Part shown: positions 26,639-33,394 of the stretch, one piece after another
Numbering within the stretch: position 1 is the first letter of the stretch
Layout: every line of letters begins with the position of its first letter
Origin: Aquisalimonas sp.
Lineage (GTDB): Bacteria > Pseudomonadota > Gammaproteobacteria > Nitrococcales > Aquisalimonadaceae
Assembly: GCF_007120195.1 (NCBI RefSeq)
Contig: NZ_SKOG01000049.1
Span: 1 to 51,160 of the forward strand
Reading direction: 5' to 3'
Length of the DNA stretch: 51,160 nucleotides
The notes under the pieces: generated by a model
The model's database searches: none
What the model was told of the DNA's origin: nothing
Seen by the model: only the letters and a program-made list of their open reading frames with translations
Made by a program: the position numbers and the translations under genes

Positions 26639-28102
26639 GTGGAACAGGAAGTGGAGCGGCTTTTCGCTCGCTACGGCGCCGGTTACAAGTGGATGGCGCT
26701 TGTCACCGTCATGTTGGGAACGCTGTCCACGGCGGTCGCGACCACGGTCGTGAACGTCGCCATCCCAGATGTGATGCACGACTTCGACGTCGGCCAGCGG
26801 GAGGCACACTGGCTTTCCACTGGATTTCTCGCGGCCATGACCACAGCCATTCTGCTCAACGCCTGGGCGCTGCAGCGCTTCGGCATGCGGCGTGTCTACG
26901 TCTTTGGCCTGCTGGTGTTCGTGTTGGCCTCGCTGCTCGGGGTCTGGGCCGCAGCGCTGGAGCTTGTGATCCTCGCGCGCGTGTTGCAGGGGCTTGTGGC
27001 GGGTGTGTTGCAGCCGTTGGCGATCACCCTGATTTACCAGGTGTTCCCGCAACGTCAGCGCGGGCTTGGTATCGGGCTGTTTGGGCTTGGGGTGATTCTT
27101 GGTCCGGCCATCGGCCCGGCGCTGGGTGGGGTGCTTGTGGACGCGGTGGGCTGGCGCGCGGTCATGGCCCTGCCGGTGCCGACGGCAGTCCTTGGCGGCG
27201 CCCTGGCGGTGTTTCTTGTACCTGTACGGCGGGGCGCCGGCCGGCGGGTGCAGCTGGACTGGCTCAGCGTGCTGATGCTCGGGCTGGCGGTGACGGGGCT
27301 GTTGTGGTCCATGGTCAGTGGCCAGCGCCTGGGCTGGACCTCTTGGCCGGTGCTGCCAACCCTGATCGCTGTGCTGGGCTTGTCCCTCGGATTCGTGGCC
27401 AGGCAGTTACTTGCCCGGGAACCCCTGCTGGACCCGCGGCTGTATCAGGCCCCTGCGTTCGCCGCCGGTTCCACCATCGCCCTGCTGTTCGGTGCAGGGC
27501 TATTCGGCTCGACCTACCTGATCCCGCTGTTCGTCCAGGAGATTCAGGAACTCTCCCCCACGGCAGCGGGACTCGTTCTGATGCCCGCGGGGCTGGTCAT
27601 GGCCGCGGCCTTCCCGTTGGGCGGCCACCTGGCGGATCGGGTACGTACGGTGGTCCCCATTGCTGCGGGGCTCGTGATCATGGCGTTGTCCTGCCTGGCG
27701 CTGGGGTTTGCTGGCCCGCAGACGGGAGTCCTCGCGGTGACGGCATGGGTGGCCCTGGGCCGTGTTGGGCTCGGGCTGGGGATGCCGGCGATTCAGACGG
27801 GCTCGCTGTACCGGCTGCCCCTCAGTCGCACGGCGCAGGGTGCCGGCGCCCTGCAGTTCTCCCAGCAACTCGGGGGTGCCATCGGCGTCACCAGCCTGGC
27901 GGTGCTCCTGGAGTGGCGCGCACTGCGGGAGGCGCGCCGCCTGCTGCCTGACGATCCGGTTACCAAGGAGGCGTTGCTCACGAGCATACCGCCCGAACTC
28001 TACCGGGAAGCCTACACCGTCGGGTTCCAGTGGAGCTTCCTGGTGCTGGGGCTCGTCTTTGTGCTCGCCCTGGCAGCGGCGGGACGCTTCGCCAAGTACT
28101 GA
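26639..28102 (+). CDS. DHA2-family MFS multidrug-type efflux pump, 14 spans
   Basis: The 487-residue inner-membrane protein resembles EmrB/QacA-type drug:proton antiporters. It has LSTAVATTVVNVAIPDVMHDF (the helix 1 motif D1), LNAWALQRFGMRRVY (motif A), RVLQGLVAGVLQPL (motif B) and IGLFGLGVILGPAIGPALGG (motif C of antiporters), and about 14 predicted helices. It starts at GTG with AAGGAG about ten bases upstream. There is no adjacent membrane-fusion protein (EmrA), so it may act alone. Substrate unknown. Confidence 0.9.
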   Translation: MEQEVERLFARYGAGYKWMALVTVMLGTLSTAVATTVVNVAIPDVMHDFDVGQREAHWLSTGFLAAMTTAILLNAWALQRFGMRRVYVFGLLVFVLASLLGVWAAALELVILARVLQGLVAGVLQPLAITLIYQVFPQRQRGLGIGLFGLGVILGPAIGPALGGVLVDAVGWRAVMALPVPTAVLGGALAVFLVPVRRGAGRRVQLDWLSVLMLGLAVTGLLWSMVSGQRLGWTSWPVLPTLIAVLGLSLGFVARQLLAREPLLDPRLYQAPAFAAGSTIALLFGAGLFGSTYLIPLFVQEIQELSPTAAGLVLMPAGLVMAAAFPLGGHLADRVRTVVPIAAGLVIMALSCLALGFAGPQTGVLAVTAWVALGRVGLGLGMPAIQTGSLYRLPLSRTAQGAGALQFSQQLGGAIGVTSLAVLLEWRALREARRLLPDDPVTKEALLTSIPPELYREAYTVGFQWSFLVLGLVFVLALAAAGRFAKY

Positions 28103-28194
28103 GGTTATGTAGTGGGCGGTGGTTACAGGACACTAGCTCGGCAGGCATTGATAGACTGGAGAGGCTGTGATTCCCATCCACTGCAGGAGGCCTC

Positions 28195-28428
28195 GTGTTT
28201 GACACATTACCCTTGTCACCCTGGCAACGCGTGCTGCTGTGGCCGGGGGGTGTATTCATGGACTGGCTGGCCCGCACACGGCCGGATATCGTGATTGAGT
28301 ACGGTTTCGGCTTTACCGTTGAGTCATACGTATTCTGGTCCGGCGTGATCTCGCTGGTGTTCTGGTTCGCTGTTTTGTTGCTGCTGCTCGGGATCGTGCG
28401 TTGGGGCTGGCGGCAGGTTCACGGCTGA
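28195..28428 (+). CDS. Small membrane protein after the MFS pump
   Basis: A 77-residue frame starts at GTG behind AGGAGG (spacing four bases). One strong hydrophobic helix (ISLVFWFAVLLLLLGIVRWGW) ends the protein, and an amphipathic or weakly hydrophobic segment lies before it. I recognise no family. It is 92 bases after the pump and may be co-transcribed. ATG 28258 is an alternative start that keeps the main helix. Confidence 0.55.
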   Translation: MFDTLPLSPWQRVLLWPGGVFMDWLARTRPDIVIEYGFGFTVESYVFWSGVISLVFWFAVLLLLLGIVRWGWRQVHG

Positions 28429-28502
28429 CTCGACGGGGCGGCGATCTGTGACGGGCGGGCAGGCTTGTCCGGTCCGATACTTGTTCACTACCTATACAAG
28501 TG

Positions 28503-28531
28503 TTGTTTAATCGTTATCGTTGCACTAGACT
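28503..28531 (+). promoter_or_regulatory. Orphan sigma-70 promoter for a candidate small RNA
   Basis: TTGTTT (28503-28508) and TAGACT (28526-28531) are 17 bp apart in an AT-rich patch. No protein-coding gene follows on this strand before the terminator at 28651. Just upstream, ACTTGT-N11-ACAAGT (28479-28501) is an inverted repeat that could be an operator. Confidence 0.6.
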
Positions 28532-28537
28532 ATGGCG

Positions 28538-28651
28538 TCAACGCAGTACACCAGGGAGCGTGTTGCCGTGGTCGTCTGCTGAAGTGCTTCTCGCGTTGGC
28601 GCATCCTGTCCCCAACCTGCGCCCCCCGGCCCTTGCGGCCGGGTTTTTTTT
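28538..28651 (+). ncRNA. Candidate structured small RNA, about 114 nt
   Basis: A transcript from the promoter at 28503-28531 would end at the terminator at 28651. It can form three hairpins in a row. The first (28543-28579) pairs GCAG-AC-ACCA with TGGT-GT-CTGC, with one bulged base on each side. The second (28598-28623) pairs GGCGCA with TGCGCC. The third is the terminator. There is no ribosome site with a useful frame. A 16-codon frame from 28532 would begin upstream of the predicted start point. I recognise no known family, and the flanking genes are unrelated or on the other strand. A truncated attenuator is the main alternative. Confidence 0.55.
28625..28651 (+). terminator. Strong intrinsic terminator
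   Basis: A 7-bp all-GC stem (CCCGGCC and GGCCGGG, loop CTTGC) is followed immediately by eight T residues. This is the clearest intrinsic terminator in the window. It lies 197 bases after the nearest plus-strand gene, which favours a separate short transcript. Confidence 0.92.
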
Positions 28652-28838
28652 GCCCGGTGGAAGTAGAAGTGCGCCGCGAGACCGCCGCTCAGATAACGAG
28701 CCCGGGTCACACCGCGCCGAGGCATCCTCAGCCGCACGGCCCATTTTGCTGCGCCGAAGGTGCGGCACCGTCACTCATGGACGGACACAGACTGGCACGT
28801 CGCAGCGGCCGGCAATCTCTGTGTTGCAAGCGGTCGGT

Positions 28839-31800
28839 CTACGCTTCTGACATCGTGGGCCTTGCCTCCGCCCCAGCCGGTGCCGCCGCGGCCTCCAGCA
28901 CCGCGGTGACCTGCTGTGCGTCGGCAACGGCCTGTCGGTGCCCCGGAAGGCGTCCCAGGACATAATGATACCGCTCCGTGCGGCTCAGAGGGCGCCGCGG
29001 GTCCAGGAGTCCGGCGTCTGCGAGCCAGTCCGCGATCTGTTCGATGCGCTTGTCGCCCACGCCGGGAATGCGATCCTCGCGCAGCGAATCGAGAAATGCC
29101 TTAGGGTCGCCGCCGACGCTGGCGGCCCGCTCGGCCAAGGCATCCAGGTGTTTCCAGTTGCTCATCGTGCTTTGCTCCAGGGCGGGGCGATCCACGGGTG
29201 TGCCGCGACCGATGCGCCAGGCATCCACCCAAGCGCGGGCGGCGAGGATACGCCGCTGGAGACGCTCCAGCTCGGCATTGTCCAGATGCCGGCCGGCGAG
29301 CGGGCCCTGGAGGAAGCTCTCGGCCTGGCCGACGGTTTCCAGGCGGAAGTCAGTGAGCAGCCTGTAGAGGAACGGGAGGTCGTCGTCGAGCACATACAAC
29401 AGATGCAGCGAGCCGGCATCGGCCAGCGGGTTGATGGCAGTAACACCCAGCAGCTCGGCATAGCTCGCCGCATTGTGGCCATCGGGAGGGGAAACCGCTT
29501 CGGGCTCTGACAGCGTCAGTGCGGGCGGCGTCGGTCCTTGCAGGCGCGTAAGATCGATGACGTGGGGCCGTTCACCCGTCGCCCGCAGCCAACGTTGCAC
29601 GTCCTCGGGCTGCGCGGTCAGATACAGCAGCTGGCGCCCCTCTTCGCGGGTCAGTGCATGCAAGGTGTTGGCTACGGCATCGAACCGTCGGGGGTCGGTG
29701 GTGGTCAGCGCCTCGTCGAGGAGCAGTGGCAGTGGCACATGATGGCCTTCCTGCTGCTCCACCCAGGCCATGCGCAGGGCTATCAGTAATTGCATGCGCG
29801 TGCCCACGGACAGGGCGTCAAGGTCGCGGACGCTGCCAGTGGCGCTCTCCCGGGCGCAGGGTTCGCCGGCCCCGTTGATTTCCAGGGTAAATGCGTCGTG
29901 GGTGAACCGGCGCAGCCGCTGGTCGGCCAGGCGTATGGCCTCGGGTTGTTGGTCCCGGCGGTGGTGTTGCTCCACATCGTTGAGCAGAAAGCGGGCGGCT
30001 TCCGCGACCATGCGCTGGTCCAGACGCTCGGCCAGCATTTCACGGGCCTGATCACGGGCCGCGCGGGCTTCCTCCAGGCGCAGTTGCCGCTGCGCCTCGC
30101 GCAGCGCTTGCAGGATCTCGCCCTGCTCCCGCAGGAGCCTTGGGTGCTCATCCGCTGCCGCCTCGGCAAGGTGCAGTTGCTCCCTCAGGGCGGCCCTGTC
30201 ATCGGCCTCGGCACGTTCCAGCAGGTCGGCCGGCGCGTCGGCAAGCCGCTCGCGGGCGGCATCCTCCCGGACGGTGGCGTTGCGCATGGCTTCACGAGCG
30301 GCGTACCAGGCAGGCAGGTCATGGAGCCGGGCAAGCAGCGTCTCCCGCTCGCCCGGCTCCAGGCCGGCGCGCCGATACAGCCGGTCCAGGGCGACGGCCG
30401 CTTCCCGCGCCGCGGCCTCGGCCCGTTCGGCCTGTTCCAACGCCCTGGTGCGGGTGCGTCGGGCCTCAGCGGCGGTCTCGAGGCGCTGGTCCAGCTGATC
30501 CAGTGCGCGCCCAAGCTCGGCCGGTGCCGAGCTCTCCGGGGGTACGTCCCACCGTCGGAGAGAGTCGGCCAACGCCGTGCCCAGCGGTGCCACGCGCTCA
30601 ACAAGCTGGCGGCAGCGCGCTTCCGCCTCCCGCTGCGCCAGCAGCGCTTCATCCCATTTGGCCGTGCGTTGGACCAGGAGCTGGAAGTGGTGGGGCAGGG
30701 TCTCCGGGTCCAGGGTGAGCCCGGTTGCCGCGGCCAGCTCATGGAGCTGCGCCCGCGCCCGCTCAAGTCGTGAACGGGCGGCGTCCATGCGCTCATCAAA
30801 ACCGGGATCCATGGTGGCGCGGCTCATCGAACGCTCCGATTGCCAGGCCAGCCAGCCCAGAGCACCCAGGCAAAGGATAGCCGCAATCAGTGTCAGGGCA
30901 GGTTGCGCCGCCAGAGCGTTGTAGGCCAACGCACCGACGCCTGCGCACACCAGCATGATGGCGGCCCTGTTGCGCCACGGTGAACGCTGCGCGGCAGCGC
31001 CTTCGGCTGCCTGCTCCCGGGCGGCCTGGGCATCGGCTTCGGCCTGTGCCTGGTGCCATGCCGCCAGGGCCTGGGACATGTCCTGGGCGGCTTCCTCAAG
31101 GCGCGCCATCGTGTGTTGCTCCAACGCGGGCGACGCTGGCGGTTCCGACCCCAGCAGGCTTGCCGCCTCCCGCGCGCGGGAGGCGGCCTTGTACGTCTCC
31201 TCCCGGGCCTGATTCAGGTGTGCGGTCAGCTCGCGTAGTTCCTCCAGGCGCCGGCGCATGGCCGGAATATCCGGCTGTCCCTCGCTGCAATCCGCCAGCC
31301 CGGTTGCCTGCACGCGCTGCAGCGCCGCTGCGGCCTGGGCGTGGGCCTGCTTCGCGATCTGCCGCTCCCGGTCGTGGTTTTGCTCGAGACGCTCCAGCTC
31401 TCCGGCCTCGATGCCCTCGGGCATGATTTCCGGGAACTGCTGCAGGCGCGCCTGGGCCTCACGGGTGGCCTCACGGGCGTCGACCAGGGCGACGGCCGCG
31501 CCGCAGTGTTCCGCGCGTCGCAGGGCGTCGCCGGCCCGGCGAATGGCCTCCTCGAGTTCCGGCAGGCGTTCGCGCTTGGCCAGCAGTTCCCGGTTGCCGG
31601 CCTCTGCTGTGCGCAGCTGTTGCTCGGCTCGTCCCAGGGCGTCCGCAGCGTGTCGGTCCCGTCGTGGGTGGACGGCCAGTGGCCCGCCGTCGGCTTGCAA
31701 CGCGGGCAAGTCATAACCGCCAGCCAGTTCCCGCCGGAGATGGGCGACGACGGTCCGGTCGCTTCGCGTCATCTGCAAGAGTTCATCGATGGGCAGGAAA

Positions 31801-32111
31801 TAGCCGCCCAGGGCCTCGGCATCCGGCAGCGCCGGCGGCGTGTGCACAACACCGTCGCGCTGCCAAATGACGTCCCGTCCCACCCGCTCCGTATGCCAGC
31901 GGTGGTCGGCGTCGCTGAACACGGCCTCGAGCATTAGATTGCCTGGGTCATCGGGGCGGGGTGCGAGCAGTAGACGCAGTGCCCGCAGCAGGCTGCTCTT
32001 GCCGGAGGCGTTTGGGCCGGTGACGACGTTAATGCCAGCACCGAACGTGTCGATGGCAATGGGTTCGCGCAGGCCCGGCAACCGGTGTATGTACAGTGAC
32101 ACGAGCTTCAC
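28839..32111 (-). CDS. Rad50/SbcC-like (YhaN-type) ATPase with C-terminal helix-hairpin-helix extension
   Basis: The 1090-residue ATPase has Walker A (GPNASGKSSLLRALRLLL) near residue 33, two long coiled-coil arms, a hydrophobic hairpin at about 380-423 (two membrane helices, as in Bacillus YhaN), the ABC signature region DALSVGTRMQLLIALRMA and Walker B LPLLLDEALTTTD. There is no CxxC zinc hook. After the ATPase ends near residue 885, about 200 further residues follow, with a helix-hairpin-helix-like motif at about 1019-1048 (RIPGVGDKRIEQIADWL). Its GTG start overlaps the stop of the nuclease gene (GTGA). It most likely works with that nuclease in DNA end processing or repair at the membrane. 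Confidence 0.88.
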   Translation of the reverse strand: MKLVSLYIHRLPGLREPIAIDTFGAGINVVTGPNASGKSSLLRALRLLLAPRPDDPGNLMLEAVFSDADHRWHTERVGRDVIWQRDGVVHTPPALPDAEALGGYFLPIDELLQMTRSDRTVVAHLRRELAGGYDLPALQADGGPLAVHPRRDRHAADALGRAEQQLRTAEAGNRELLAKRERLPELEEAIRRAGDALRRAEHCGAAVALVDAREATREAQARLQQFPEIMPEGIEAGELERLEQNHDRERQIAKQAHAQAAAALQRVQATGLADCSEGQPDIPAMRRRLEELRELTAHLNQAREETYKAASRAREAASLLGSEPPASPALEQHTMARLEEAAQDMSQALAAWHQAQAEADAQAAREQAAEGAAAQRSPWRNRAAIMLVCAGVGALAYNALAAQPALTLIAAILCLGALGWLAWQSERSMSRATMDPGFDERMDAARSRLERARAQLHELAAATGLTLDPETLPHHFQLLVQRTAKWDEALLAQREAEARCRQLVERVAPLGTALADSLRRWDVPPESSAPAELGRALDQLDQRLETAAEARRTRTRALEQAERAEAAAREAAVALDRLYRRAGLEPGERETLLARLHDLPAWYAAREAMRNATVREDAARERLADAPADLLERAEADDRAALREQLHLAEAAADEHPRLLREQGEILQALREAQRQLRLEEARAARDQAREMLAERLDQRMVAEAARFLLNDVEQHHRRDQQPEAIRLADQRLRRFTHDAFTLEINGAGEPCARESATGSVRDLDALSVGTRMQLLIALRMAWVEQQEGHHVPLPLLLDEALTTTDPRRFDAVANTLHALTREEGRQLLYLTAQPEDVQRWLRATGERPHVIDLTRLQGPTPPALTLSEPEAVSPPDGHNAASYAELLGVTAINPLADAGSLHLLYVLDDDLPFLYRLLTDFRLETVGQAESFLQGPLAGRHLDNAELERLQRRILAARAWVDAWRIGRGTPVDRPALEQSTMSNWKHLDALAERAASVGGDPKAFLDSLREDRIPGVGDKRIEQIADWLADAGLLDPRRPLSRTERYHYVLGRLPGHRQAVADAQQVTAVLEAAAAPAGAEARPTMSEA

Positions 32112-33394
32112 GGAGTCCCCTCTCTGCGCTGAGCCAGCAGCTCATCGAGGCTGGTGAGCGCTCCGCGTCGCAGCCAGTCGAGAAGGGTCGCCTCGTCCGG
32201 ATCGCTGGTGTCAAGCCTGCTCCAGGCCGGGTCCCGTTGCACGGCCTGGAGGTGAGCGCGCGCACGATCGAGTAACGCCTGCCGCTCCGGGTCGCCCGCG
32301 GGTGCGTCCTCGAGCAGTTGCAGCCGGCGGGCCAGCAGACCCGCCGGGTCTGGGCGTTGTGCCAGGGTCTGGAGATCGATCTCGGGGCGCGTATTCAGCC
32401 ACCAGTGCCCGACAAAGCCGTGCATGCCGCCGGCCAGTGGCAGGTCGCTCAGGTCTTCATTGGCGAGCAGAGCCGCGACCTCCCGCCGCAGCCGCGTGCG
32501 GCCGTGGAGGCGCAGCCGCAACCCAAGGGCGTCGGGGCGGAACGTGTCATCGCTGAGTTGTCGGGCCGTGGCCTCGGCGCTGGCCAGGATCCGGGAGCGC
32601 GCTTCGGTCGCATCCGCCAGGTCGGTGAGATCCACGTCCAGGACCTCCCAGCGCAGAGGCGCCAGAGGCCAGTGAGTGATGCTGCGAATCTCGCCGGATT
32701 CAATGGTGTATAGCCATGGGCCCCGGGCGCCCGTCTCACTGGCGCGAAGGGCAGTCACCGAACCAAGATAACCCGAGGGTTGGTTCGCTGCCAGTGCGTC
32801 GGGTTTGTGTATGTGACCGAGCAGCCAGGCGTCCAGTCCGGCCGCATGGAGCTCACGGCTGGAAACCGGCGCGTGATGGCTGTCGCGGTGGTCGCGATCG
32901 CAATGAAGCAGACCCAGCATGGGGCCCTGGGGAGCGTTGAAGGATTGGCCGGCCAGGGGGTTATCCGGCGTGATGGGGGAGGGGAACGACCAGCCGTACA
33001 CGCGTACGGTCGTCCCGTCGGCCCCGGTCAGGTCCACGGCTTCCCAGGTACCGCCGCGGCCGAGGAGTCGGAACCCGGCGACTTCCTCCGCCAACTGGGG
33101 TAGAACCTGCACGTCGTGGTTGCCGGCGACACCGACCACGGTGATACCGGACTCGACCAGCGCGGTGACGCCTCGGCGCAGTTCGGCGAAGGCTTCGAAG
33201 AAGTCGTCCGCCTGCTCCACGACATCACCGGCAAAGGCGACGACGTCGACGCCCTCGCGCCGGGCCGCCTCCACGAGCCGCTCCAGCGCCCCCGCGGGTC
33301 CGAGGCGCCGCTCCCCCAGGCGGGCCTTGACGGCATCAGGCAGACGCCCAGAGCGGCGCCCCAGATGCAGATCTCCAACGCCCAGTAATCGCAT
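32108..33394 (-). CDS. Mre11/SbcD-like metallophosphoesterase exonuclease (YhaO-type)
   Basis: The 428-residue protein has all phosphoesterase motifs of the Mre11/SbcD group: GVGDLHLG (I), FAGDVVEQADDFF (II), GVAGNHDVQ (III), LLHCDRDHR and LLGHIHKP (IV and V). Residues ~270-428 form the capping and C-terminal region with repeated Leu-rich helices. It is translationally coupled to the following Rad50-like ATPase gene by a four-base overlap, so the two form an SbcCD/YhaON-like pair. GGAGGA is about 14 bases before the ATG. Confidence 0.92.
   Translation of the reverse strand: MRLLGVGDLHLGRRSGRLPDAVKARLGERRLGPAGALERLVEAARREGVDVVAFAGDVVEQADDFFEAFAELRRGVTALVESGITVVGVAGNHDVQVLPQLAEEVAGFRLLGRGGTWEAVDLTGADGTTVRVYGWSFPSPITPDNPLAGQSFNAPQGPMLGLLHCDRDHRDSHHAPVSSRELHAAGLDAWLLGHIHKPDALAANQPSGYLGSVTALRASETGARGPWLYTIESGEIRSITHWPLAPLRWEVLDVDLTDLADATEARSRILASAEATARQLSDDTFRPDALGLRLRLHGRTRLRREVAALLANEDLSDLPLAGGMHGFVGHWWLNTRPEIDLQTLAQRPDPAGLLARRLQLLEDAPAGDPERQALLDRARAHLQAVQRDPAWSRLDTSDPDEATLLDWLRRGALTSLDELLAQRREGTP

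Follow-up and report, generated by a model that had tools for sequence, protein, structure and literature searches.

The intergenic segment studied here is a conserved, predicted non-coding small RNA (sRNA) gene of the salt-loving Aquisalimonas, not catalogued before, and its orphan transcription unit is real. Homologues were accepted in 12 of the 14 genomes of its family. Besides the conserved unit, our computations recovered a predicted operator at its promoter, a regulon of genes sharing the operator repeats, a MerR-type regulator and, in some genomes, a short LOV protein. We consider it likely that the product is a trans-acting sRNA of a LitR/short-LOV blue-light regulon, reaching its targets by predicted pairing. 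Because its operator DNA is the same as the apparent switch of the light genes, the RNA is probably made on blue light.

A conserved orphan transcription unit

The window (the whole 51,160-nt stretch of DNA analysed) comes from a genome of 4.05 Mb (G000). The predicted sRNA unit (Table 1) is flanked by a gene for a 77-aa protein and by a converging gene for an SMC-like protein (28839-32111, minus strand) and, by sequence, carries both a promoter and an intrinsic terminator of its own, neither of them inside a gene. On the same minus strand, 28839-33394 encodes an SMC-like ATPase (1090 aa) and a metallophosphoesterase (428 aa), which we take to resemble a nuclease pair of the SbcCD/YhaNO type.

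Table 1. Features of the sRNA locus in the window
Feature	Position	Strand	Basis or remark
77-aa hydrophobic protein, syntenic marker upstream of the sRNA	28195..28428	+	no Pfam or NCBIfam match for the window protein
Predicted operator, three 11-bp-spaced repeats	28482..28509	+	TGTTCA 28482-28487, TATACA 28493-28498, TGTTTA 28504-28509; matrix rank
-35 element TTGTTT	28503..28508	+	sequence reading; TTGCAC-like in most homologues
-10 element TAGACT	28526..28531	+	17 bp from -35; -10 of each member hand-picked
Predicted sRNA, about 114 nt	28538..28651	+	start set 7 nt past -10, end at terminator
Pyrimidine-rich tract CUUCUCGCGUU	28587..28597	+	outside the conserved stems; alignments
Hairpin 2, stem GGCGCA/UGCGCC, loop UCCUGUCCCCAACC (candidate seed)	28598..28623	+	conserved
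Intrinsic terminator, 7 G/C pairs + U8	28625..28651	+	stem 28625-28643, eight T at 28644-28651; 98.8% of cells paired in 12 sequences

A sequence-only reading had proposed a promoter with 17-bp spacing, three hairpins, the last a seven-bp GC terminator with eight T residues, and no gene or known RNA family. The promoter, the second stem and the terminator were all located, and the latter two are conserved in homologues. The first hairpin (28543-28579) is not shared generally: the 11 homologues fold otherwise in their 5' parts. Among relatives that keep the flanking genes, stems 2 and 3 persisted and stem 1 did not; G001, which bears on this comparison, retains the 77-aa gene and has no sRNA. 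The fold of the window RNA was unexceptional (z -0.74; 43 of 200 shuffles equally good) and a strict promoter scan of 27600-29600 returned no site, so the case rests on conservation. All 12 members share the promoter layout TTG-x3, 17 bp, TA-x3-T (-10 hand-picked from the alignment), and their predicted transcripts range from 109 to 128 nt. Together, the conserved promoter, operator, second hairpin and terminator, with no conserved ORF, bear out the proposal of an orphan sRNA with its own regulated promoter.

A plain DNA search covered 95 relatives, 35 of which gave some match at E ≤ 0.1. Nine of the 13 other family genomes matched at E ≤ 1.2e-5, and two gave weaker matches (G007, E 0.002; G013, E 0.004) that were accepted on promoter, hairpin, terminator and neighbouring gene; with G000 these make up the 12 members, all from the window's family. 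Other loci from this search (L009, L011, L013, L014, L018-L026 and L029) turned out to be terminators or gene sequence; the reading took in the matches other than L015, L027, L028, L030 and those without a locus. A covariance model built from the 12 members (R1; 71 positions, 13 pairs) recovered them at E ≤ 2.4e-12, values that hold by construction, and found no further believable member. No sRNA was found in G001 or G012 (best R1 E 1.2 and 0.10, respectively; of the low matches in these two, G012:C17, locus L025, was read), and the absence from G012 is uncertain because its assembly consists of 220 contigs. In the rest of the order (40 genomes), eight had weak R1 matches: the best (E 3.5e-5) was a gene-end terminator and the other seven lay at E 0.002 to 0.07. 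Those of G019, G025 (L018) and G049 were read and rejected, and L044-L054 were left out of the reading. In 274 genomes of the class, G000 included, three matches outside the family passed the cut-off of 1e-3 (E 3.2e-5 to 5.8e-4) and lacked the conserved features. Plasmid and phage collections contained no match to the sRNA unit. Near one R1 match, L077 (G131), lies another unit that looks like promoter, hairpin and terminator and follows a long inverted repeat; it may be an unrelated sRNA.

Promoter repeats and the genes that share them

The inverted repeat that had been noticed ahead of the promoter (28479-28501) is present, but it is better read as part of three direct repeats with 11-bp spacing (TGTTCA-N5-TATACA-N5-TGTTTA), the third overlapping the -35 element. 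From sequence, this array is best read as a predicted CarH/LitR-type direct-repeat operator. CarH operators have been described as tandem arrays of the 11-bp repeat nnnnTnnACAn across -35/-10, and recognition is possible with one or two full repeats and flanking imperfect ones (PMC9304148). The window array has this arrangement of a LitR/CarH regulon, with one full and two imperfect TnnACA repeats, and resembles the CarH operators of Thermus and Myxococcales, whose tandem repeats overlap -35 and/or -10. Counting against the LitR reading, TATACA alone among the three window repeats keeps the full TnnACA core, and an element TGTACT-N5-T(G/A)TAC, placed over -10/+1 in eight of the 12 members, is degenerate in the window. 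Most homologous promoters have TGTACA-like units ahead of -35. Fur, HutC, LexA, TyrR and LuxR-type boxes were considered and dropped, and the closest competitor, an array of OmpR-type direct repeats, lost out once neighbouring genes indicated LitR.

With three mismatches allowed, a pattern search placed the repeat unit of the sRNA promoter also beside folE and a FAD oxidoreductase gene. The exact pattern KRTACWNNNNNTRTACA, picked after some sites had already been seen, matched 45 times across five genomes, strands counted separately, and its reversed control 3 times. As TGTACA is its own reverse complement, some places were counted twice; the 45 matches correspond to 35 separate places, two being sRNA promoters. 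A matrix built from the 43 matches away from the sRNA ranked 28482-28498 and 28493-28509 as the top three of all 51-kb positions (16.7, 16.6 and 16.0; next site 13.5), and for none of the 12 sRNA promoters did more than 3 of 300 shuffles attain its best score. A scan for TNTACA-N5-TNTACA with two mismatches gave 17 window matches, spread across the window, versus 5.5 expected. Single imperfect matches being common, we give weight to the array of tandem repeats and to its matrix rank.

We examined 21 site contexts, namely 20 of the 35 exact-pattern places and L099 from the three-mismatch search; of the other exact-pattern places, three more were regulator promoters and 10 were left out of the context reading. 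Light-regulon genes or the regulator accounted for 12 contexts (Pfam run on 10 proteins): two regulator genes, four folE (three by Pfam, L099 by eye), two FAD oxidoreductases, two cyclopropane-synthase-like methyltransferases and two photolyase-related DPRP genes, one of these in G000. The other nine had no clear light link, among them a short-chain dehydrogenase-like gene (L153). Unlike the case of CarH, no carotenoid cluster was recognised among the 21. For the Pseudomonas class II LitR with its short LOV, a published account lists phrB, ufaM, folE and cryB as light-induced and gives sites spaced TGTACA-N12-TGTACA (PMC9758184). The repeat-bearing genes resemble this class II gene set (PplR/PmlR): in both, a MerR-type regulator without a clear B12 domain accompanies a short LOV protein, and photolyase-related, folE, FAD oxidoreductase and fatty-acid-type methyltransferase genes stand under TGTACA-type sites. 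The systems differ in spacing (N12 there, N5 with an 11-bp period here), in the predicted sRNA that belongs to the set here, and in the regulator gene, which here follows a DHFR-like gene (by eye).

The regulator and the short LOV protein

A MerR-type protein with a LitR/CarH-like HTH is encoded in all 14 family genomes; the one of G000 (G000:C87:36764-37594) is class-II-like. As in a LitR/CarH regulon, this cognate-type regulator has like sites at its own promoter, where GATACA-N5-T(A/G)TACA was found in 13 of 13 genomes examined (all but G013), part of it doubling as an extended -10. Its presence in G001 and G012, both without an sRNA found, counts against the LitR reading. The solved chains nearest to the regulator, in the HTH region only, were 3whp, CarH 5c8d and 2jml. 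No B12 Pfam domain was matched in the G000 regulator at E 0.001, and the orthologues of G007 and G013 gave weak B12-binding_2 matches. By our reading, the regulator has DD where B12-type relatives carry ExHxLG. The B12-binding domain and histidine motif of class I (B12) LitR/CarH proteins were thus not found, and the regulator differs from CarH in having no B12-binding signature. A second MerR protein, bearing the B12-type motif GExHxLG, was observed at each of L137, L138 and L139 (G008, G013 and G005, respectively); PF02607 and regulator searches of the 14 genomes found such a protein only in these three, and none in G000. The LitR of Vibrio is an unrelated protein sharing the name.

An exact LOV signature was present in eight of the 14 genomes, and a short LOV protein of about 150 aa in only four (G000, on C39; G003; G010; G012). 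The short LOV gene adjoins one for a related protein, which in G000 has a polyketide-cyclase-type domain, and the best-scoring repeat site of the 3-kb locus lay just upstream of the gene pair in all four (scores 14.1-19.3, without shuffle control). Among the solved structures closest to the G000 LOV are chains of 3sw1 and 7a6p, both 'sensory box' proteins, which we take to be Pseudomonas short LOVs.

The sRNA could be real and its repeats answer another regulator or signal, such as a MerR protein of the MlrA kind controlled by stress or redox state, in which case it would not be a light RNA. Among NCBIfam models the regulator does score best with MlrA (76.7 bits, against 64.6 for CarH, both far below cut-offs), and the nine contexts without a clear light link and the scarcity of the short LOV point the same way. 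Against this stand the like repeats ahead of photolyase-related, folE, FAD oxidoreductase, cyclopropane-synthase-like and short-LOV genes, a set much like the published class II regulon, and we judge this explanation unlikely.

Conserved elements and proposed role of the RNA

The conserved core of the RNA is GGCGCA-loop-UGCGCC-terminator. The first five pairs of hairpin 2 form in all 12 members and the sixth in eight. One compensatory change was seen in this hairpin (G-C to A-U, in G009); this single covarying pair compares with a shuffled mean of 0.1 and is reached by 42 of 500 shuffles, a slight support because most pairs never vary. Eleven members carry the C-rich loop CCUGUCCCC exactly or with one base changed, G013 being the exception. 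A tract, CUUCUCGCG, is common to nine members, in one of them with a single change, and G007, G010 and G013 deviate in the alignments. Rfam, at gathering and relaxed thresholds, yielded nothing above gathering, consistent with the earlier impression that no known family fits. The best sub-threshold match was suhB/mmgR (RF00519), which covered hairpin 2 and the terminator but scored 21.4 bits versus a gathering threshold of 41.

The 77-aa gene is present in 13 of the 14 family genomes, and eight named records that carry it belong to A. lutea, to two Aquisalimonas MAGs or to MAGs of Ectothiorhodospiraceae. Its synteny with the sRNA at 10 of the 12 loci would suit a promoter-terminator unit that serves only this neighbour and has no role in trans. 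However, 2.6 kb separate the two in G005, the loop (and, in nine of the 12, the tract) is kept beyond the needs of a terminator, and the sRNA unit has its own predicted operator, which together make such an arrangement very improbable. A short mRNA for a micro-protein has still less to recommend it: LLALAHPVP can be read in one frame of the window and G004 RNAs and LAHPVP in others, but there is no common start, the LLALAHPVP frame has no stop ahead of the terminator, and no ORF shared across the 12 members was found.

Around the 77-aa gene we made further observations. In 11 aligned sequences of its protein, WPG..FMDW and GF..ESY..W are invariant, and in G001 flgN/flgM-like flagellar genes follow it (by eye). 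In the window, 28121-28136 reads GGTTACAGGACACTAG, which differs at two positions from a portion of GCACTTCGGGGACAGGACACTAG, an intergenic repeat with several copies in G003; this match may be due to chance, as 34 of 100 shuffles also have one.

Neither candidate seed had complements above control in G000 and G003, and a start-codon target common to these two genomes was not detected. For the complement GGGGACAGG there were 62 matches versus 68 for the reversed control; several of those in G003 are a single repeated intergenic element, and the one site common to both genomes (L197/L217) lies inside a gene, away from its start. The complement CGCGAGAAG gave 95 matches versus 184 for control, and none of the 93 distinct sites examined was near a start and shared. 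A site upstream of hemC was set aside as a target, as it sits at the end of the preceding gene.

The preferred light-regulon reading takes repression in darkness and release by the LOV protein from work on Pseudomonas. In the dark, LitR would act as a repressor on the 11-bp repeats over -35 and block transcription; in most relatives it would instead sit on the repeats over -10/+1. Blue light, perceived by the short LOV protein, would remove LitR, and the RNA of about 114 nt would then be made, ending at its U8 terminator. Its C/U-rich loop and tract, neither of which lies in a conserved stem, would probably base-pair with purine-rich sequence in the ribosome-binding regions of target mRNAs, and Hfq-aided pairing may silence these targets in light stress. 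Overall, we lean towards a LitR/LOV photosensory circuit with an sRNA arm, in which a family-specific RNA derepressed by blue light would silence its targets as the repair and pterin genes turn on.

In a literature search that covered few subscription journals, we found no earlier sRNA under a CarH/LitR-family repressor. In the accessible portion of a review on gene expression controlled by light, sRNA comes up once, as part of an engineered system (PMC9614035). Rhodobacter has photooxidative-stress sRNAs (SorX, StsR) that are likewise small RNAs tied to light stress; StsR is described with alternative sigma factors in the part of the work available (PMC8307010), and SorX has no homology to the RNA described here (16.6 bits versus a cut-off of 46.6). 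The LitR-type light responses of non-phototrophs are known as regulons of protein genes, for photolyase, pterins and fatty-acid modification. The present work defines a new sRNA family, with a covariance model ready for use, and, if the light-regulon reading is true, an sRNA under a LitR operator would add post-transcriptional silencing to the light response.
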